Origin: Pedobacter indicus
GTDB taxonomy: Bacteria; Bacteroidota; Bacteroidia; Sphingobacteriales; Sphingobacteriaceae
Length of the DNA: 64,000 nt
NCBI RefSeq assembly: GCF_003449035.1
Contig: NZ_QRGB01000001.1
Location: 2,728,001 to 2,792,000 of the forward strand
Direction of reading: 5' to 3'
Part shown: positions 51,085-60,412 of the stretch, piece after piece
Layout of the letters: the number at the start of each line of letters is the position of its first letter
Position numbering within the stretch: position 1 is the first letter of the stretch
Program-made: the position numbers and the translations under genes
The notes under the pieces: generated by a model
The model's input: only the letters and a program-made list of their open reading frames with translations
What the model was told of the DNA's origin: nothing
The model's database searches: none

Positions 51085-52038
51085 ATGGCAGAGCATTATA
51101 AACTATTATTTCACCAAGAACCTTTCAGCATAACAGATGCTACGGATAATTCTCCGCCCTGGAGCGGGTATCCAATGAAAACCGCACAATCATCTTCATT
51201 GTACAAATTTGACAATACGGAAATGTTAAGACAAAAGCTCTACATGGATCGATTTCATATCGAACTGTTCGAGCTCCAAACGAAAAAAGCATTTGAATTT
51301 CGCTACCGAACAACCCGAAACAGGTTATTTCTCTTCTTTATGCTCGATGGTGAAATCAGGTTCTTCACTAATAGATCTGAATCTGTCACCAAAGTAAAGA
51401 AAGACAACTTTTACCTTGCCTACAATCAACCTGCAACATATGGGGTACGCTTCCCCAAAAAAGGAACGACAGCCGTACTGGTCATATCTATAAACCTTGA
51501 ATGGGCACAGGCAGCCATCCAGAGCCATCCAAACTTACGAAGGGTATTCCAAGACTTCAGACCGTCAGGCAAACATCTCAATATAATGCCCCATTGCCGC
51601 ATGGAAACAAGGGTGAAGGTGTGGCTTCGTTATCTACAAGATGCTGCCAACACAAACATGAAAGCGTTGAAATCAATACTTGAAGGTCACATCAGTTTGG
51701 CTCTCACTTACTATGAAGAGTTCTTGAGCACCCACAACAAGCGAGACATCTACCGCTTGAAGGAATATCTAGATCTAAATTATCATGATCCAGAGCTATC
51801 GGTAGAAAAATTAACAACCTTGTTCCCGTTCACAGAACGATCTCTTTACAACGCTTTTATACACCAGTTCCAGACAACTGCAGTTGGCTACTACACCCGT
51901 CTCCGCATGGAGAAAGCAAGGCAGCTCATTGAGGAAGCTGGGCTTCCTCAATCCGAAGTATGGCAGCTGGTAGGATATAACGATCAAGGGACATTCAGAC
52001 AGGCATACCGAAACTTCAAAAAGCGCAATTTTTCCTAG
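51085..52038 (+). CDS. AraC-family transcriptional regulator
   Basis: A 317-residue regulator. The N-terminal part (about 1-200) is a ligand- or dimerisation domain with a cupin-like tone (RLFLFFMLDGEIRFFTNRSESVTKVKKDNFYLAYNQPATYGVRFPKKG). The C-terminal 95 residues are the double HTH (YRLKEYLDLNYHDPELSVEKLTTLFPFTERSLYNAFIHQF; RMEKARQLIEEAGLPQSEVWQLVGYNDQGTFRQAYRNFKKR). It lies upstream of the structured RNA stretch and the DUF6520-like gene, reading in the same direction. Repeats in its own promoter suggest autoregulation; the SusC/SusD-TlpA operon is a possible target. Confidence 0.9.
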   Translation: MAEHYKLLFHQEPFSITDATDNSPPWSGYPMKTAQSSSLYKFDNTEMLRQKLYMDRFHIELFELQTKKAFEFRYRTTRNRLFLFFMLDGEIRFFTNRSESVTKVKKDNFYLAYNQPATYGVRFPKKGTTAVLVISINLEWAQAAIQSHPNLRRVFQDFRPSGKHLNIMPHCRMETRVKVWLRYLQDAANTNMKALKSILEGHISLALTYYEEFLSTHNKRDIYRLKEYLDLNYHDPELSVEKLTTLFPFTERSLYNAFIHQFQTTAVGYYTRLRMEKARQLIEEAGLPQSEVWQLVGYNDQGTFRQAYRNFKKRNFS

Positions 52039-52187
52039 TACCCTCTCTTAATCGGTGGTTTTCGGAACGATTTTGCCAAAAATCGATAGATATTTTCCGA
52101 AAATCATAAAGATTGCTTCAATTTTACCCTGACCTTTGTTTATAAGGTTAAACCATAAATAAAACCAAACGAATAAAAATATAGACA

Positions 52188-52311
52188 GCGTACCGGGTCG
52201 CCGTGCCATTGTTCCCAATGGCTTACGTCCCAGACAAGATAGCCATTAGGCAGTGAGACCAGCTATCCATATCCGTCGGTACGCATCAAAGGCCAGAACG
52301 GATGTCTGGGA
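52188..52311 (+). ncRNA. Candidate structured RNA: three-way junction with pseudoknot
   Basis: Five helices can be read directly and are mutually compatible. Stem C pairs 52228-52236 with 52303-52311 (9 bp). It encloses hairpin D (GATAGC 52238-52243 with GCTATC 52262-52267) and hairpin E (ATCCGT 52271-52276 with ACGGAT 52298-52303; the last base is shared with stem C). The loop of E holds CGGTACGC (52277-52284), complementary to GCGTACCG (52188-52195) upstream of C, giving an 8-bp pseudoknot. Hairpin B (52205-52211/52216-52222, loop TTCC) lies between. No family known to me matches. The strand is inferred from the downstream gene. Confidence 0.5.
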
Positions 52312-52350
52312 TACAGGGACGCGGGTACAGCGTTAAAGTGCAAACAAACC

Positions 52351-52701
52351 CAATGGGCAGGGGGTGCCAAGGCGCACCGCTGAACAGTAGGTAAATGGGC
52401 ATGGTTAAAAATGGATGCAATGAACAAGAAAAACTCAGCAAAACGATCAACAGAATTCCTTCAGAACATAGAGGAACTGTTCCAATCTGTATGGATATGG
52501 CTGCATGTTCGGTTCATGCGAATATCCATGATGTCAGAATCAGCCGATATTATCATACCAAAGCTGGTTGATGTTATCAGGTCGGTAATGGCATCACCTG
52601 GTCGAATTACCTTAGTCCAGAAGAGAGTGATTAACAGATTCAGGTACCCTTTAAAGTTTACCCTATTCAGGCTCAGCCTGGCCCTTCGGATTCCAGGAGC
52701 C
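52351..52701 (+). ncRNA. Continuation of the structured stretch: series of strong hairpins
   Basis: Further stems follow. GGTGC...GCACC lies at 52363-52378. A nested hairpin has outer arms 52491-52498/52522-52529 and inner arms 52503-52507/52515-52519. A long imperfect hairpin joins 52546-52560 to 52565-52578. A bulged 9-bp stem at 52670-52701 is GGCT-CAG-CCTGG closed by CCAGG-AGCC. The density of stems is higher than in neighbouring non-coding DNA. It could be one RNA of about 520 bases with the junction upstream, or the long leader of the DUF6520-like gene. A 102-codon frame crosses this stretch but looks fortuitous. Confidence 0.4.
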
Positions 52702-52799
52702 CGACTGGCCACTACTTAGGATCCCTCAAATGCATATCTGCGAGGCAAAACCGATATACATCAGAAAAAGATAGAACTATAAACTTAAAAATAAGAAGT

Positions 52800-53165
52800 A
52801 TGAAAGCTTTAACAAACAACTGGCTACGTGCCGGTATAACATTGATGATTTTAGTATTTGGGGTATTCTTTATTGTGAAAGCGATGGAGAAGAAGGAGAA
52901 GCCCGTACCGCAGACGGAAGTCTTAAATACTGGATGGTTTGAATTTATGGGCGGATCTGGTGATGATCCAACTGACGAGAGTCAATATCGACTTCTTGAT
53001 CCAAATGAGCCCCTACCAAACTGTCCGGGAGGCGGCGAGGTATGTGCTATAAACGCACCTTTGGACTCTAGCGGTCAACCTATTATAGATCAGGATCTAG
53101 AGGAGGAGATCGAATTAGCAACACAGAAGAAAGAAAAAACTACAAATGTTCATGTTAGACAATAA
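52800..53165 (+). CDS. DUF6520-like small exported protein
   Basis: A 121-residue protein with an N-terminal membrane segment or signal anchor (NNWLRAGITLMILVFGVFFIVKAMEKKEKP). The acidic mature part contains GSGDDPTDESQYRLLDP, then a Cys pair in NCPGGGEVCAINAPLD, and a Lys/Glu-rich tail. The shape (signal, Y-R-L motif, C-x5-C) resembles DUF6520-type small proteins that accompany SusC/SusD loci in Sphingobacteriales and Flavobacteriia. Function is unknown. It follows the structured RNA stretch and precedes a bidirectional terminator. It faces the SusD gene convergently. Confidence 0.68.
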   Translation: MKALTNNWLRAGITLMILVFGVFFIVKAMEKKEKPVPQTEVLNTGWFEFMGGSGDDPTDESQYRLLDPNEPLPNCPGGGEVCAINAPLDSSGQPIIDQDLEEEIELATQKKEKTTNVHVRQ

Positions 53166-53186
53166 ACGTTTAAGTTTTTTCTAATA

Positions 53187-53247
53187 TAAAAGAGCGGTTT
53201 ATCAACATGTAAGGATGTTTCTTGCATACTGACAAACCGTTCTTTTC
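53187..53247. terminator. Bidirectional terminator
   Basis: AGAGCGGTTT (53191-53200) pairs with AAACCGTTCT (53234-53243) through nine standard pairs and one G-T, with A/T tracts on both sides. It separates the DUF6520-like gene (+) from the SusD gene (-). Confidence 0.75.
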
Positions 53248-53257
53248 GATCTGATTA

Positions 53258-54622
53258 CTAATTCTGTTCCAAATTGCTATATTCGATCACATCTTCGGGG
53301 ATTTTGAATACGTAATTGACGATGTCGTCAGCTGTCAATATATACTCCTCCCCGTCGACATTTCGAGTCATGCTCCGATCAAATTCACCCAAGATTATAT
53401 ATCTTCTCATATCCGTCCACCTCACGCCTCTAAAAATCAATTCCCTTCTTCTTTCTCGTTTGATGAATTCCAGTGCCTGTTTCTGATCACCAAACTTTAT
53501 AGTAATAAAATCTTCGTCCCTGAATCGTTTTGATCGTAAATGATTAAGATCTTCAGCCGCTTTGTCCAATAACCCTTTACGTGCGTTGGCTTCTGCACGT
53601 ATAAGATACATTTCAGCGGTCGTAGTGCCCATAAAGAGACTTACGGAATTTCTTCCATTATAAGACCCTTTAAATTGCACGTCACCTTGATCATCAAACG
53701 AAAAAAATGCCTCTTTTCTCAAATCCTCGTCTTCATAATTATTATATTCAAATGGGCTAACCCGAAAGGCTCTTGAACTAAGATGGGAGCCACCTCTTAA
53801 AGCTGCGTCCAATAAAACTTCTTTGGTCCATTTATCAAATGGAACCGTAGCCTCAAGATCAATATCTACCTCGTAATCCAAAAGCTCTGAATGAATGGAT
53901 AATGCAGAATCAGCATATAATCCAGCTTTCTCATGATCACCCATAACGAGATATACCCTCGCCATCTCCGCATAGGCTGATACCTTGCTGGGGCGTGTTG
54001 GAATCTCTTCGCGGTCAGACAATAAGGGGATGGCTTGTTTGAGATCATTGATGATAAAAGCATAGCACTCTTCTACAGTACTTCTTTTCAGCTCCTCGTC
54101 CAGCGTTGCCTTCACTCGCAAAGGGATTCCCAGTTGATTGTTTGTAATATTCGGATCATAAGGCTTGGCAAATACCTGTAAAAGATTAAATAGCTTGTTC
54201 GACCGGTAGAATAGCGCTGCACCCTTTAGCCTGTTTGCTTTAGTTTGCTCATTAGCAGAAACATCGATTTCAGGAAGGTATGTTAATACAGTATTTGCGT
54301 ACATGATTGCACGATAAGGGCTAGACCATTCTCCACCAACCGGACTTGCCGGTAACCACAGATAGTGTTGTCTGTCTCTCTCATCCGACATTGCCGCCCA
54401 AGATTGCTCCCTCAGGAAATAACTGTCACTAGCAATCTCCCCCATACCGCTATTTGAAAAAGTCATTGCGACATCACTATTGTCCAACAACCCCTGCAAG
54501 TCTTCTAAGGTGCTTGGCACCATAAAGCTATCATCCGGTTTTAGACCGAGGTAATCTGCACAACTACTTAGCACGATCGATAATCCTAATAAAACTCCTA
54601 TATATGTATTTTTCATCATCAT
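53258..54622 (-). CDS. SusD/RagB-family lipoprotein (second locus)
   Basis: About 454 residues from the ATG cluster at 54622-54616 (MMMKNTYIGVLLGLSIVLSSCADYLGLKPDD); a longer frame would run into the SusC gene. Family traits are the lipobox, SFMVPSTLEDLQGLLDN near the start, KANRLKGAALFYRSNKLFNLLQVFAKPYD in the TPR region, and EMYLIRAEANARKGLLDKAAEDLNHLRSKRF plus RRRELIFRGVRWTDMRRY at the C-terminus. It is the last gene of a TlpA-SusC-SusD operon and starts 5 bases after the SusC stop. It belongs to the shorter SusD group often tied to peptide or protein-derived ligands. Confidence 0.9.
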   Translation of the reverse strand: MMMKNTYIGVLLGLSIVLSSCADYLGLKPDDSFMVPSTLEDLQGLLDNSDVAMTFSNSGMGEIASDSYFLREQSWAAMSDERDRQHYLWLPASPVGGEWSSPYRAIMYANTVLTYLPEIDVSANEQTKANRLKGAALFYRSNKLFNLLQVFAKPYDPNITNNQLGIPLRVKATLDEELKRSTVEECYAFIINDLKQAIPLLSDREEIPTRPSKVSAYAEMARVYLVMGDHEKAGLYADSALSIHSELLDYEVDIDLEATVPFDKWTKEVLLDAALRGGSHLSSRAFRVSPFEYNNYEDEDLRKEAFFSFDDQGDVQFKGSYNGRNSVSLFMGTTTAEMYLIRAEANARKGLLDKAAEDLNHLRSKRFRDEDFITIKFGDQKQALEFIKRERRRELIFRGVRWTDMRRYIILGEFDRSMTRNVDGEEYILTADDIVNYVFKIPEDVIEYSNLEQN

Positions 54623-54626
54623 TAAT

Positions 54627-57600
54627 TTAAAAACCAATTTTAAACCCACCAGTTATCGTAAGCGGCGGTGGGATTGAGGCACCGTAAACAGGGTCAATAC
54701 CTTCGGGGTTCAGCGTCCATATCAAACCTAGATTTGTACCTAATACAAAAACCTCAATATTCTTTAACCCGATGTCGGGTGCACTCGTGCGATAGGACAG
54801 TCGGATATCTCTTAATCGGAGATGATCACCACGCCTAACAAGTGCCTCGCTTAAACTGTAGAAGCCTTCGCGGTTTCCATCCAAGGGATAATACAGTGCC
54901 GGGATATCAGTATGTGTTTCATCACCGGGCACTTGCCAACGATCGTAAAAATCAGCATGTCCCCGCCAATCTTCGAAGAAATCCGAATAGTTAATACTAC
55001 CTTTACGAAAATAATAGGAAAACTGACCACCAATGGAGAATCCTAATTCAAAATTCTTATAACCAATTCGGTTTCTGAACAGAATACTTGATCGTGGTCT
55101 ACCTGGTCCATGGAAGATCAAATCTTCCTCGGGCGTCTCCCGCACTAGGTTTCTATAGTTTGTAGATAGTTCACCGTTATCAAAACCCTGCGGAGCTCCA
55201 TCTTCCGAACTGAGTCCGCCCCATTTCAAACTAGCCAACACGTTGTGTTCACGCCCAATAAAGTTAGCAGAATGAATAATCGTACTCGTAACGGTCGACA
55301 AAGTTTCACGGTACTTTTCCAAGATAGTTTTGTTATAACCTGCCCTTAACAAACCGGACCAGAGCCAATATCCACTTCTCAGATTAGTTCCGATACTTAT
55401 GTCCACTCCTTTACCCTTCAATTCAGAAGCGTTGGCTGTAACTGCACTCGCTCCGAGTGTCGGGTCTATTAACATAGAACCCAATAAGTCCTTTGACCAT
55501 TTATTGTAATAATCAATCGAAATGTTCAGCTTATTTTGGATTATCCTCATATCCAGAGCAAGATTAAATATCTCCATTTTCTCCCAACGCAAAGTAGGGT
55601 TCTGTAAGGATACAATGCTATTGTAGGACAGGTATGAATAAAAATCAGGATAATTCGAGTGTTCGATAACCAGTTCTGCCGGTACGCTATTGTCGACATT
55701 TCCACTATATCCAAATGACGACCTAAGTTTCAGATAATTCAAAATATCCGAACCGAAAAACGGCTCTTTTGAAATCTCCCAACCTCCACCAACCGACCAC
55801 AACGGAGACCATTTGTCTTTAGTCTCAACCCCAAAGATATTGGAGGCATCGTTCCTGGCGCTCGCCGATAAAAAATACCGATCTTTGAAAGCATAATTAA
55901 TGTTCGAGAAAAACGACACGAACCGGTTGGCTGTTCTACTGAAATAAATGCCATCAGGCAAATACCCGCTACCTCCAATTCCAGCCATCCTCCGTATCGG
56001 CGACACATGATCAACTTGCGTATAATAGGTTCTCCCTTCATAAACGCCGTAAACCCTTCGAGACGCAGAGCTATTGTTGATCTCCCTCGCTTCCGCACCT
56101 ATTAGCCCTTGTATCATGTGGTCATTTGAAATTTCTTCCCGAATGTCCAATTGCGCCCGAAGCGCATAACCCCAAAGCTTAGCATTATTGTCATCTCGTA
56201 TACCACCGGCCGGGACGCCATGAGAAAACTCGTCACCTTCAATCGTCGTAAAACTATTGAAGAGGTCTCTCGTATAATAACTATCCTCCGAAAACAATGA
56301 GGATGATTCCGACATTGTACGGAACAGTTGCGAGTGTCCGGACAACCTCACCCCATCAACAATTTCGTAATCCAGATTAAGACCCATCACCACTTGTTGG
56401 CTTTCTGACAGGTTTCCATCTCTCCCAAGTTCGTCAAGGGGAATGAAGTCCCAGCTTTTAGTAATAAATTCTTGGTTCTCTTGAATAAAAGACTCATCGT
56501 AATCGATACGGAGGACCGTGTTGTCACCCGTTTCGTCTTTTAATTGAGCATAGGGATAAAGTTTTTTATTAAGTATACGAATCTGATTATATGCTATTCT
56601 GTTCCCCGTGTTATAAATAGATTTATTCAAGCGCGTGAACGACAGATCAGTTGACAACGTAAGCTTTTTAATAGGCATATACGATTGATTAAAACGCACT
56701 GTCAACCTCTCCTGACCATTCGTCGGCATTGTATAATCGTTTTTACTATAACCTAGGGATACTGAATAAGCCGTCTTGTCACCACCACCACGCAAAGATA
56801 TAGACGTATTATTTTCAACATGGTTTCGGTATACATATTTCAGAAAATCATCCCGCACGTCATAAGTACCCAACAGATCAAGCTGCCTTCTAAGTTCTTG
56901 GTCCGAGATGCTACCTTCGTCATGGTCCATTAATAAATGTACCACCGGGGACAGCGGAGGGTTTCGCCAGTTGTTGATTTCACCGTCGTAAAAGCCCTGC
57001 TCATAAAGATAACTCTCCATATCAATAAAATCTGCAGACGAAACGATCCGATCTGCAAAAAGATCAGGCTTACTAGCGACCATTAAGTCAGATGACACGT
57101 CAACAGTCAATGGTTGGTCAAGACGACCTTTCTTTGTCGTAATCACCAACACCCCATTCCCCGCTCGTACCCCCCAGATAGAGGATGCTGCCGCATCTTT
57201 TAGGACAGTGATACTTTCGATGTCATTCGGATTGATATTCTCAATATCACCTTCGTACGGAAAATTATCTACTACTACCAGCGGAAATGAACTACTTCGA
57301 ATACTTGACTCACCCCGAATAGTTAACTCCGGTTGCTGGGCTCCTAAGTTGAAATCATATTCCGTCCGATCTAGATAAGCACCCGACACAAGACCGTCTA
57401 TTCGATTGATCAGATTGCTGGCTGTGCTATAACCAAGCTCTTCGCCGTCGATCACTTCCACGGAGCCTGTCGATGATCTCTTGTTCAGTTTCTGATAACC
57501 CGTATTAATTTCAATCTCCTCTAAGACGTTCACACTGGGTTCAAGTTCGAAATTATGATTAGCCGCATTGGCGAGACTTACGGATAGGCGTACGGTTGTA

Positions 57601-57836
57601 TACCCCAAGGCCCTTACCTGAAGGGTGTCCTGAAGATTGCGCGGTCGTAGATTCAACGAATACTCCCCTTCGCTACTGGTTGAAATGGACATACCAGTAG
57701 CCTCCAACGTCACTGTAGCACCGGCGATCGGCACCCCTCTCTCCTTGTCGGTCACCCTGCCTGAAATTGTTATTTCAGTCTGTGCCAAAACTGTCCAATA
57801 AAACAACACAAAAATAATGGTCAATAAACTTTTCAT
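54627..57836 (-). CDS. SusC/RagA TonB-dependent transporter (second locus)
   Basis: A 1069-residue outer-membrane transporter with a signal peptide (MKSLLTIIFVLFYWTVLAQ). It has a carboxypeptidase-like domain (ISGRVTDKERGVPIAGATVTLEATGMSISTSSEGEY), an INTGYQKLNKRSSTGSVEVID TonB-box region, the plug (IENINPNDIESITVLKDAAASSIWGVRAGNGVLVITTKKG) and the barrel. There is no STN domain, so it is not wired to a FecR/sigma pair, in contrast to the other locus. Its ATG overlaps the TlpA-like stop (ATGA), indicating translational coupling. Confidence 0.93.
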   Translation of the reverse strand: MKSLLTIIFVLFYWTVLAQTEITISGRVTDKERGVPIAGATVTLEATGMSISTSSEGEYSLNLRPRNLQDTLQVRALGYTTVRLSVSLANAANHNFELEPSVNVLEEIEINTGYQKLNKRSSTGSVEVIDGEELGYSTASNLINRIDGLVSGAYLDRTEYDFNLGAQQPELTIRGESSIRSSSFPLVVVDNFPYEGDIENINPNDIESITVLKDAAASSIWGVRAGNGVLVITTKKGRLDQPLTVDVSSDLMVASKPDLFADRIVSSADFIDMESYLYEQGFYDGEINNWRNPPLSPVVHLLMDHDEGSISDQELRRQLDLLGTYDVRDDFLKYVYRNHVENNTSISLRGGGDKTAYSVSLGYSKNDYTMPTNGQERLTVRFNQSYMPIKKLTLSTDLSFTRLNKSIYNTGNRIAYNQIRILNKKLYPYAQLKDETGDNTVLRIDYDESFIQENQEFITKSWDFIPLDELGRDGNLSESQQVVMGLNLDYEIVDGVRLSGHSQLFRTMSESSSLFSEDSYYTRDLFNSFTTIEGDEFSHGVPAGGIRDDNNAKLWGYALRAQLDIREEISNDHMIQGLIGAEAREINNSSASRRVYGVYEGRTYYTQVDHVSPIRRMAGIGGSGYLPDGIYFSRTANRFVSFFSNINYAFKDRYFLSASARNDASNIFGVETKDKWSPLWSVGGGWEISKEPFFGSDILNYLKLRSSFGYSGNVDNSVPAELVIEHSNYPDFYSYLSYNSIVSLQNPTLRWEKMEIFNLALDMRIIQNKLNISIDYYNKWSKDLLGSMLIDPTLGASAVTANASELKGKGVDISIGTNLRSGYWLWSGLLRAGYNKTILEKYRETLSTVTSTIIHSANFIGREHNVLASLKWGGLSSEDGAPQGFDNGELSTNYRNLVRETPEEDLIFHGPGRPRSSILFRNRIGYKNFELGFSIGGQFSYYFRKGSINYSDFFEDWRGHADFYDRWQVPGDETHTDIPALYYPLDGNREGFYSLSEALVRRGDHLRLRDIRLSYRTSAPDIGLKNIEVFVLGTNLGLIWTLNPEGIDPVYGASIPPPLTITGGFKIGF

Positions 57837-58561
57837 CTGTCACCTCCTTCCTCTTTCCGGTGCGGACTTTCGCCTATTACCTCTCGCTGTTTTGACACAA
57901 GACCTTCAAAATCCCCTTGTGCAGCCCGCTCGAGATTTTCTTGGTTCAGGCTGGGGTTAAAAGTAATCCCCATCACCTTGCCGTCCTGTATCCAAACGAT
58001 GTGGGGGACCGAAAAAACATCGAACACCGAAGAGAAAACAGAATCATCTACAATTGAGAACGGTCGATAGTCACCGAACCAGTGCTGTAAGGACTTAGCC
58101 TTTTGGAGATCCTCTTCGGTTTGCGAAGTGATCGGGATAATGGACACCGAACTAGGCAAGTCCATCTTCCTGATCTCCCTGATGGAGTTCAAACAACTGC
58201 CACACCATGTGGCCCAGAAATCTAGGATGATCAGTTTTTCCCCTCTATAGTCGCTAAGCTTTATAGTTTCCTTTCCTTCAGGGTGGTTTACGACCTTTAA
58301 AGGGATATCCCAAAGCTCTTCGGGTATTTTGTCGCCAACGGAAAGAACCATCAGTTCTTGGTTGATGGAAGCTGGCGCAGATGCTTGAGCAAACACCTGC
58401 TGCCAGGCAACCACACACATAAAACAAAAGATTAATGAGGTAAATTTGTTGAGTCTTGCTGGGCATGACCAGTTAAAAGATGTGTAAATCTCATTATGTA
58501 TAGGGAACTGTTTGTCAAAAAAATTCCATAGCATTCCCTTGACGCTGTAAAATAGCTTCAT
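57833..58561 (-). CDS. TlpA-like thioredoxin-fold protein of the SusC/SusD operon
   Basis: A 242-residue protein. An N-terminal region of about 40 residues precedes a hydrophobic signal-like segment ending in VFAQA (about 42-60), and then comes a TlpA/ResA thioredoxin domain with active site FWATWCGSC (Cys120, Cys123) and the cis-Pro in SVPHIVW. It is a periplasmic thiol-disulfide reductase or related redox protein. The start is uncertain because the leader is longer than usual; later in-frame Met codons are few. It is first in the operon with SusC and SusD. Such TlpA-SusCD sets are common in Sphingobacteriaceae, and the reductase may keep cysteine-containing imported peptides reduced. Confidence 0.85.
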   Translation of the reverse strand: MKLFYSVKGMLWNFFDKQFPIHNEIYTSFNWSCPARLNKFTSLIFCFMCVVAWQQVFAQASAPASINQELMVLSVGDKIPEELWDIPLKVVNHPEGKETIKLSDYRGEKLIILDFWATWCGSCLNSIREIRKMDLPSSVSIIPITSQTEEDLQKAKSLQHWFGDYRPFSIVDDSVFSSVFDVFSVPHIVWIQDGKVMGITFNPSLNQENLERAAQGDFEGLVSKQREVIGESPHRKEEGGDR

Positions 58562-59422: not shown

Positions 59423-60412
59423 TGAGAATTAATTGTAGTATAGTAATAATAGACATAAGCAATCCAGAAAAATACTATTTTTTTAGCATACAACCTAAAG
59501 ATTGCTTGTCTTTAGCACATGACCAATAATAGGATACCAAAGCCCCATCGACAGAACGATGAGCTGCTGAAGGGCGCATTCGTCTTGAATTGGGGAGAAC
59601 CCATGCTTCTCGGGGGCATACTGGTTCACAAGAACCAGCGGTTATATTCATCGACATGGTTTTTGAACGTATATTGTTTATTGTTTCTTCGAACTCCCTA
59701 CCAGACAAAAGGACTTCTATCCCAGAATCGTTTTGCCGCCCCTCTCTGTGGACCATTCCTAAGTTGTCGGAAGTTGACGTCGTATTGTATAATCCCGCCC
59801 TCGAAACCATCGATGGAACTCCTGTCATAATTCTTGACCAAGAAACACAAGTTATCCTCGACATTATATTTAAAACCGATAAACTACAATATTATTCCAA
59901 ACGAATTTCCTGAAATCCTTATCTGTGTCTAGATGGTTACTTAATCAATATATTTCTAAAAACAATCTAACGTCTTAGCGCATAGATTCGAGGGATTGAC
60001 ATATATAATTTGATAATGCCAATCTTTTAAGAAGTTACTCTGGTGGGTAAATGAGGTTCTGTAGAATTTTTTTTAGTACAATCCAAATGAGAACGGAAAT
60101 GGCTGATAAAAACTTGTGGCTTAGATTTCATTAAGCCTAATTAAGGGTTCTATAGAGAGGCTCATTGGAATACTTCATAACTGGGCATAAAAAGACCTCG
60201 CAAGGTGTGCATTGTTAAGAGGCTTGCAAGGGTCTAACACCACAAATACAGGAAAAATTAAATGATATGACAAGAAAATACTTTCCTACCTCTTGCAGTC
60301 GCCTCTCAAATGTTCTGACAGTTTCTTTAAGTATGTTAGTGCTATATTAAGCCAATTTGAAGAGACGTTCAATTTACTAAAATAGGTAGTGAAAACATGA
60401 GTTTATGACATC
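59423..60412. other. Gene-poor stretch with ORF debris
   Basis: Nearly 1 kb without a convincing gene. From 59563 to 59913 on the + strand a frame of 116 codons is open from a stop codon without an ATG near its beginning (see separate entry). From 59914 on I see only AT-rich sequence and one imperfect hairpin (AGACC/GGTCT outside, GCAAG/CTTGC inside, 60193-60235). Confidence 0.5.
59563..59913 (+). pseudogene. Unidentified ORF remnant
   Basis: The frame reads protein-like (PAVIFIDMVFERILFIVSSNSL; SEVDVVLYNPALETIDGTPVIILDQETQ) but lacks a proper start, follows a stop at 560-562 of the same kilobase, and ends abruptly. The last third is weakly reminiscent of N-terminal domains of AraC-type regulators. 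Its base composition looks GC-richer than the flanks. It may be a decayed gene or part of an interspersed repeat. No family could be assigned, and the opposite strand is also open, so coding status is doubtful. Confidence 0.25.

Follow-up and report, generated by a model that had tools for sequence, protein, structure and literature searches.

A conserved structured RNA with two pseudoknots upstream of a small basic-protein gene and a DUF6520-like gene in Pedobacter indicus

A conserved structured RNA is encoded in the genome of Pedobacter indicus, and the compensatory base changes found among its homologues exceed those of shuffled and slid controls. The RNA lies in a 64,000-nt stretch of DNA (assembly GCF_003449035.1, contig NZ_QRGB01000001.1, positions 2,728,001-2,792,000 of the forward strand), which is called the window below and whose own numbering is used. 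A sequence-only reading had proposed that a structured RNA not described before, built around a three-way junction with a pseudoknot, lies upstream of a DUF6520-like gene, and had named conservation, covariation and a lack of Rfam matches as checks. The proposal is supported and all three checks were passed. The extent given at that time, 52188-52701, did not hold: the structured domain covers approximately 52184-52384 and is composed of the following elements.

52184-52384, + strand: structured RNA domain, type A (P1, P2, C, P3, P4, P6, P5, two pseudoknots); covariation, match of covariance model R2, no Rfam match
52188-52196, + strand: 5' strand of P1 (pseudoknot 1, 9 bp), pairing with 52276-52284 in the P4 loop
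52276-52284, + strand: 3' strand of P1, within the P4 loop; same evidence as for the 5' strand
52205-52222, + strand: P2 hairpin with a UUCC-type loop; covariation
52227-52235, + strand: 5' strand of the C helix (closing stem), 9 bp with 52304-52312
52304-52312, + strand: 3' strand of the C helix; covariation
52238-52267, + strand: P3 hairpin, 6 bp (52238-52243/52262-52267), missing from type B relatives
52271-52303, + strand: P4 hairpin, 5 bp (52271-52275/52299-52303), whose loop carries the P1 3' strand
52320-52341, + strand: P6 (52320-52322/52330-52332) and pseudoknot 2 (GUAC 52325-52328 with GUGC 52338-52341); pairing compared with shuffles
52358-52382, + strand: P5 hairpin (inner pairs 52364-52367/52374-52377, outer pairs 52358-52360/52380-52382); covariation

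The C helix encloses hairpins P3 and P4. The closing stem, the two enclosed hairpins and the pseudoknot of the sequence-only reading are all present in the sequence, and the crossing order claimed (A, C, A', C') holds as P1, C, P1', C'. Hairpin E, our P4, indeed abuts the closing stem at 52303, its 3' strand and C meeting at 52303/52304. Against the helix lengths of 8 bp for P1 and 6 bp for P4 given there, our count is 9 and 5 bp, respectively; the only difference lies in the assignment of U52276, which is usable by either helix.

Covariation was counted in two alignments. A9 consists of 14 sequences of the window's type, for which the structure was drawn from the window and then counted; 94.6% of the pair cells form, and 17 of 45 pairs and 48 cells are changed on both sides. 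On none of the five measures did any of 500 shuffles equal the observed values, and pairing in the slid versions was 28.8-42.7%. A13 comprises 13 divergent sequences, one of which, L104, is from genus g17, the home of most A9-type loci. In this alignment 91.0% of the cells are paired, and 25 of 31 pairs and 88 cells are changed on both sides (0 of 500 shuffles); over A9 and A13 together, the slid controls paired at 28-44%. Since the P2, C, P3 and P4 columns of A13 are RNAalifold's choice on the same alignment, with no structure supplied, and P1 was added by hand, the A13 count leans towards the structure. Applied to A9, RNAalifold recovered P1, P2, P3, P6 and P5; it did not return C and P4, which cross P1.

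The changes are spread over the individual helices. P1 is paired in 99.2% of cells with double changes in three of nine pairs in A9, and in 100% with three of seven in A13. For P2 the values are 94.9% and three of six pairs in A9, with four of five pairs double-changed in A13, and for P4 87.1% and one of five pairs in A9 and 96.2% and three of four in A13. Double changes were found in six of nine (A9) and eight of eight (A13) pairs of the C helix, in one of six and seven of seven pairs of P3, and in two of the four inner and none of the outer pairs of P5 (A9). G-U cells outnumber A-C cells by 45 to 11 in A9 and by 25 to 15 in A13, which identifies the + strand as that of the RNA. Moreover, covariance model R2, built solely from the 13 divergent sequences with the window and all A9-type sequences excluded, matched the window at 52183-52344 with 39.6 bits (E 4e-11 in 108 kb), the next-best match in the window reaching only 7.1 bits. 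Structure, conservation and strand of the RNA are shown by these data.

The number of helices had been put forward as an argument against chance. Folding energy alone does not decide this, as it is only mildly unusual for the single sequence (z = -1.82 with 8 of 200 shuffles at least as stable, the shuffle count being the same in another run); the reality of the RNA therefore rests on covariation, which is decisive, and not on thermodynamics. The stretch after about 52390 is likewise a little more stable than its shuffles (z = -2.21, 5 of 200), and the further stems claimed there up to 52701 fall inside a protein-coding open reading frame (ORF) at 52420-52719. Covariation of these stems was not assessed, and the evidence for this stretch favours a conserved protein. 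A pairing of P1 with the P6 loop, present in the window's minimum-energy fold, failed by eye in L018 and L106 and was not counted.

The second pseudoknot is located downstream of C, where the P6 hairpin (52320-52332) presents GUAC to GUGC at 52338-52341. All four pairs are complete in 24 of 26 sequences against a shuffle mean of 19.7, and 2 of 5000 shuffles were as good; the script required G and C at the two ends of the downstream strand (G..C), in observed and shuffled sequences alike. Homologues display, among others, the combinations GCAC/GUGC, GCGC/GCGC and GGAC/GUCC, and pseudoknot 2 is not fully paired in L006 and L097, which have a longer loop. P6, pseudoknot 2 and their flanks contain strongly conserved nucleotides (GGRACGCGGGUACAGCGAUAAAGUGC). 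Type B relatives lack P3, and by eye their C and P4 are fused into one helix of 10-11 bp.

For the divergent sequences RNAalifold proposed a competing helix, in which the P1 strand pairs with the 3' end of the domain (A13 columns 7-13 with 209-218) instead. On A13 this alternative is 97.4% paired with three of six pairs double-changed and a covariation score reached by 0 of 500 shuffles, but it was proposed on the very alignment that scored it. On A9 it is 78.6% paired without a double-changed pair, and 500 of 500 shuffles were as good. Because P1 shows double changes in both A9 and A13, the P1 pseudoknot was retained as the main model. The alternative helix is possibly a second, mutually exclusive state of the divergent group, and may represent a switch.

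With the RNA domain as query, blastn (E<=0.01) gave matches in 36 of the 399 genomes searched from the same family, and later reading established that 30 of these 36, including the window's own, hold the RNA element. As to the other six, G412 and G417 are chance matches, and no locus was read for G028, G029, G061 and G342. The 30 loci obtained comprise the window itself, 25 that were accepted on alignment, L008, which is the same element as L002, and three that were rejected. A search pattern of the conserved core identified 22 named contigs, all from Sphingobacterium, Pedobacter or Mucilaginibacter; they are partly the same sequences as other loci, as indicated by identical ORFs, and the two sets overlap. 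R1, a covariance model of the RNA core, gave clear matches in 2 of 395 genomes of the phylum, and R2 in 2 of 295 genomes of the class, one being the window's own in either scan. The other seven R1 matches at E<=0.001 were without partner genes, and the stricter filters used in both scans led to loss of weak matches. In the window's genome the element is a single copy by DNA, R1 and small-protein searches. As far as our searches could show, the RNA is patchily distributed and confined to one bacterial family.

Several candidates were rejected: L031, L033 and L034 are short stretches without the RNA element, L003 is a chance match inside a protein gene, and the seven weak phylum matches L037-L043 have neither a small ORF nor a DUF6520-like gene at E<=0.01. 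L118, the third R2 match of the class scan, lies inside a coding sequence and was regarded as chance. One further R2 match, L074, is weak (E 0.022). DNA searches with the window yielded nothing in plasmid or phage collections, those with L020 nothing in plasmids, and nothing was found in DNA searches of viral contigs; the collections searched give no hint of carriage by a phage or plasmid. In two Pedobacter loci, L046 and L063, genes whose products resemble, by reading, mobilisation proteins and a relaxase are located about 1.6-3.1 kb upstream of the core. Judged from this reading of the genes, the RNA-gene cassette could conceivably travel with mobilisation-type elements. Opposite-strand ORFs overlie the RNA in several loci and were read as mutually unrelated.

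The surroundings of the RNA in the window comprise the following features.

51085-52038, + strand: AraC-type regulator upstream of the RNA (HTH_18, E 9e-12)
52130-52138, + strand: promoter-like -7 element TGACCTTTG, CTTTG about 50 nt upstream of P1
52420-52719, + strand: small ORF for a 99-aa basic protein with a C-terminal RKFA[LV]F-like motif (here LKFTLF); in-frame alternative start at 52411
52724-52759, + strand: candidate 3' pseudoknot before the DUF6520-like start (CCTC 52724-52727/GAGG 52742-52745 and 52732-52736/52755-52759); weak
52800-53165, + strand: DUF6520-like small exported protein with a two-cysteine region (profile A7)
53258-57836, - strand: convergent SusD (53258-54649, Pfam) and SusC-like (54627-57836, by reading) genes
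57833-58561: TlpA-like gene (AhpC-TSA/thioredoxin Pfam hits)

The gene directly behind the RNA is the small ORF, which the sequence-only reading had overlooked, and the DUF6520-like gene is the second. In 48 of 49 loci, an ORF of at least 60 codons starts 72-200 nt past the first base of the P6 loop; L060, the one that does not show it, is cut off by the end of the stretch. The first open start was taken throughout, which biases this count. Over 76 codons, 24 of 25 non-redundant elements keep this frame open, against 0 and 2 for the other two forward frames; in L051/L023 it is frameshifted near a run of T with both halves still recognisable. dN/dS values of 34 within-group pairs range from 0.31 to 1.04 (median 0.55, below 1 in 33 of 34), indicating weak to moderate amino-acid constraint. 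A loose pattern matched the C-terminal motif in 37 of 40 non-redundant ORFs, and among these 37 the six motif positions are occupied by R (30), K (34), F (27), A (32), L/V (34) and F (36). The pattern missed L051 (frameshifted), L096 (variant RKHGLF) and L115 (RKFALF too near the start of the partial frame). The motif codons of the 37 ORFs vary synonymously; the motif is conserved as protein and not as codons. Conserved frame and amino-acid-level constraint show that the small ORF is a protein-coding gene.

Its product measures roughly 80-120 aa across members and is strongly basic, with a pI of 11.6 in the window and pI values of 9.4-12.0 and charges of +3.8 to +19.7 among 18 proteins. In 14 of the 18 proteins where the script located the motif, the ORF runs 2-41 residues past it, and some members resemble a membrane helix by reading. 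No Pfam match above chance was obtained for the window's protein or for 18 members (best E 0.021), and no NCBIfam match for the window's protein. The AlphaFold2 model (pLDDT 68.7, pTM 0.35) was too uncertain for a fold search. A profile of the small protein detected relatives in 37 of 301 genomes of the family at E<=0.01, the weakest of them uncertain, and the R1 core was found at E<=0.0041 in 14 of 16 loci from the small-protein search. In three loci both genes, small ORF and DUF6520-like, are present although the RNA is incomplete or was not found: it is truncated in L102 (R2, E 1.5e-6), reduced to the core in L113 and undetected by R1 and R2 in L108. The small protein is therefore not a by-product of the RNA, nor is the RNA essential to it. 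In L009 and L012, insertions of about 80-90 nt separate the RNA from the small ORF.

The wording 'DUF6520-like' was chosen because the Pfam gathering score for DUF6520 (PF20130) is not reached: two relatives hit PF20130 below the cut-off (E 0.0025 and 0.027), and a third relative and the window's own protein gave no such hit. A hydrophobic leader at the N-terminus and a pair of cysteines are conserved among the proteins. Their profile matched at E<=0.01 in 43 of 49 loci, the window being counted through L092, and failed in L006, L022, L030, L047, L056 and L060; some of the rows counted had built the profile, and named and other loci overlap. Among genomes of relatives, 15 of 100 were matched. 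DUF6520 loci with MauE (PF07291), TlpA and SusC/SusD contain the same kinds of downstream genes as the window. Other DUF6520-like loci differ, as R1 found the RNA in none of 19 (best E 0.63) and R2 clearly in one, L073, which R1 missed. Many DUF6520-like loci are thus without detectable RNA, and the RNA is one of several arrangements. Several of the 19 have a MauE-like gene as their immediate upstream neighbour instead (by reading, with a Pfam match for L077). By reading, a MauE-like gene also lies between the small ORF and the DUF6520-like gene in L101, L110, L114 and L115, and the L101 protein matched PF07291 with E 1.6e-28. The MauE protein of L077 has a C-terminal extension ending in MRFPRKFALFRRRA, which resembles the tail of the small-ORF protein.

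Along the loci, a promoter-like site is followed by the RNA, the small ORF, a MauE gene in some cases and the DUF6520-like gene, with SusD/SusC convergent. Convergent SusD/SusC or TlpA together with an AraC- or LytTR-like regulator recur by reading among the 22 named contigs; in Pfam, LytTR scored above the cut-off for L002 and below it for L051. The recurrent placement of the RNA is shown: it lies on the same strand and upstream of the same genes in independent loci, as expected for a cis-acting leader. Bacteroidota promoters have a consensus of their own, and this was used to search for the -7-like motif. In 15 of 25 elements a regular expression located a TANNTTTG/TGNNTTTG or TNNNCTTTG motif 33-58 nt before the approximate start of P1, with two more elements matching farther off and eight not at all; this count had no shuffle control. 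A sigma-70 scan, which relies on a different consensus, gave no + strand site, and the + strand of 52000-53300 revealed no terminator-like site that would part the RNA from the genes. Between the AraC gene and the RNA, an inverted repeat (TGGTTTTCGGAA/TTCCGAAAATCA, 27 nt apart) occupies 52056-52106; it may be an operator or a terminator, and we could not decide between the two. The candidate pseudoknot at 52724-52759 is paired in 95.1% of cells (16 sequences), with its first helix invariant. Only one pair is double-changed, no more than in shuffles, and the evidence for it is weak.

Of the 13 proteins aligned with the window's DUF6520-like protein, that of L061 comes nearest to it (46%), and the SusC proteins of both loci have 1069 aa and similar ends. 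The window's RNA, unlike this protein, is closest to L006/L007/L002. It is possible that the RNA and the N-terminal leader recombine apart from the variable C-terminal part that accompanies SusC.

We lean, by a modest margin, towards a cis-acting leader that controls the downstream operon, with ligand, ribozyme activity and expression all being matters of inference. This reading is favoured because of the recurrent cis position, the promoter-like site upstream and the operon downstream. The RNA would constitute a structured 5' leader of about 200 nt, and transcription is predicted to start a few tens of bases upstream of it. The P1 strand would dock into the loop of a hairpin inside the three-way junction; P6/PK2, the second pseudoknot, would follow as a compact fold of the H type, both arrangements being supported by covariation. 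Next would come the gene of the small basic protein and that of the DUF6520-like exported protein, with MauE between them in some genera. In response to a signal, the folded leader may control translation or stability of the operon; the putative signal would be a small molecule or a bound protein, possibly the basic small protein itself. Transcription start, regulatory role and nature of the signal are inferences. The elaborate fold may hint at ligand or protein sensing, for which there are no experimental data. Simple occlusion of the small ORF's start is disfavoured by the variable distance between RNA and ORF, and no expression platform was identified in the leader. Among the options listed in the sequence-only reading, the leader of an operon fits best, and nothing was found, in the absence of transcription data, for a free regulatory RNA or an intron-like element; between riboswitch, protein-binding RNA and ribozyme the present evidence does not decide.

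Two more specific forms of control are conceivable. The domain could be a new class of riboswitch, in which the two pseudoknots bind a metabolite or ion and gate the operon, ligand binding being inferred. Size, two pseudoknots, the strongly conserved P6/PK2 nucleotides and the leader position are all riboswitch-like, and the mutually exclusive second P1 partner of the divergent group beats shuffles, as a switch would. However, that helix is without covariation in A9 and was scored on the alignment from which it was derived, P3 is dispensable, neither a ligand nor an expression platform has been identified, and small ORF, MauE, DUF6520-like protein and SusC/D point to no metabolite. It is also conceivable, though slightly less likely, that the leader is autogenous, the basic small protein or another protein binding the RNA and feeding back on its own operon; binding is again inferred. 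The high pI of the protein and its position behind the RNA in 48 of 49 loci speak for this view, whereas its persistence with a truncated RNA in L102 and with none found in L108, the membrane helix-like appearance of some members and the low-confidence AlphaFold2 model speak against it.

The remaining explanations are weaker. That the small ORF encodes an arrest-type leader peptide, whose RKFA[LV]F motif would stall ribosomes and control the downstream exported protein, is unlikely. The motif is indeed conserved by amino acid and not by codon upstream of an exported protein, and a similar tail ends the MauE protein in L077, but most ORFs extend beyond the motif (by 2-41 residues in 14 of 18 proteins) and a MauE gene may intervene before the DUF6520-like gene. 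To our knowledge, no stalling motif resembles RKFA[LV]F. Still less probable is a working ribonucleoprotein or ribozyme formed by RNA and small protein, like OLE RNA, with the link to the mRNA being secondary and the activity inferred. In its favour, a simple attenuator would not require so elaborate an RNA, and the RNA is closely linked to one small-protein family. Against this stand the recurrent cis placement upstream of the operon, the promoter-like motif in 15 of 25 elements, the absence of processing evidence and the persistence of the ORF where the RNA is truncated (L102) or not found (L108). Chance complementarity in a long intergenic region, or an effect of coding overlap, is practically ruled out; it can appeal to the 8 of 200 shuffles as stable as the window sequence and is refuted by covariation in two sequence groups, by pseudoknot 2 and by the R2 match.

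Rfam 15 contained no family above the gathering threshold over 52184-52384 and gave no consistent or significant match, and at permissive E-values the window and six homologous loci, the latter searched with E up to 5, gave scattered unrelated matches alone. Neither the window nor these six loci matched known ribozyme or intron classes in Rfam, which does not exclude a new class. A literature text search returned 0 papers on DUF6520. Searches for structured RNA with gene or taxon terms, judged by titles and starts of abstracts, brought up no description of the RNA, supplements and most subscription papers being outside their scope; those including 'SusC' mostly caught words like 'susceptible' and say little. 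The main texts of two genome-wide surveys (PMC11109978 and PMC8632094, 26 and 50 bacterial genomes) were free of the taxon and gene terms in a term search only.

The RNA shares leader position, strong covariation, conserved unpaired nucleotides and pseudoknots with orphan riboswitch candidates and structured leader RNAs. It differs from the orphan candidates in that it has no Rfam family and is paired with a small-protein family lacking a Pfam match. OLE RNA is likewise an elaborate RNA genetically linked to a small (membrane) protein, but there was no OLE match in the Rfam search, and the window's RNA is a leader upstream of the protein gene. OLE RNA is about 600 nt long, compared with about 200 nt here. 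A bolder reading is possible but less likely than not: a riboswitch or ribozyme of a new class, doubly pseudoknotted and able to do without its third helix, that is restricted to one family and controls or works with a new family of small basic proteins and an export/redox module consisting of MauE, TlpA, the two-cysteine exported protein and SusC/SusD. Large covarying RNAs without known relatives are uncommon, and several of them later proved to be new sensors or catalysts. Experiments can build on a well-defined fold with its two pseudoknots, on natural variants that have or lack P3 or are truncated, and on a genetic partner that recurs. It also brings to light a small-protein family without a Pfam match above chance and gives a way in to the DUF6520/MauE/SusC loci, whose function is unknown.

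Elsewhere in the window, positions 60195-60231 of the - strand matched the Rfam abiF RNA with 38.6 bits against a gathering score of 37. By reading, no obvious AbiF-type ORF lies beside it, and the match is possibly the remnant of a defence locus.
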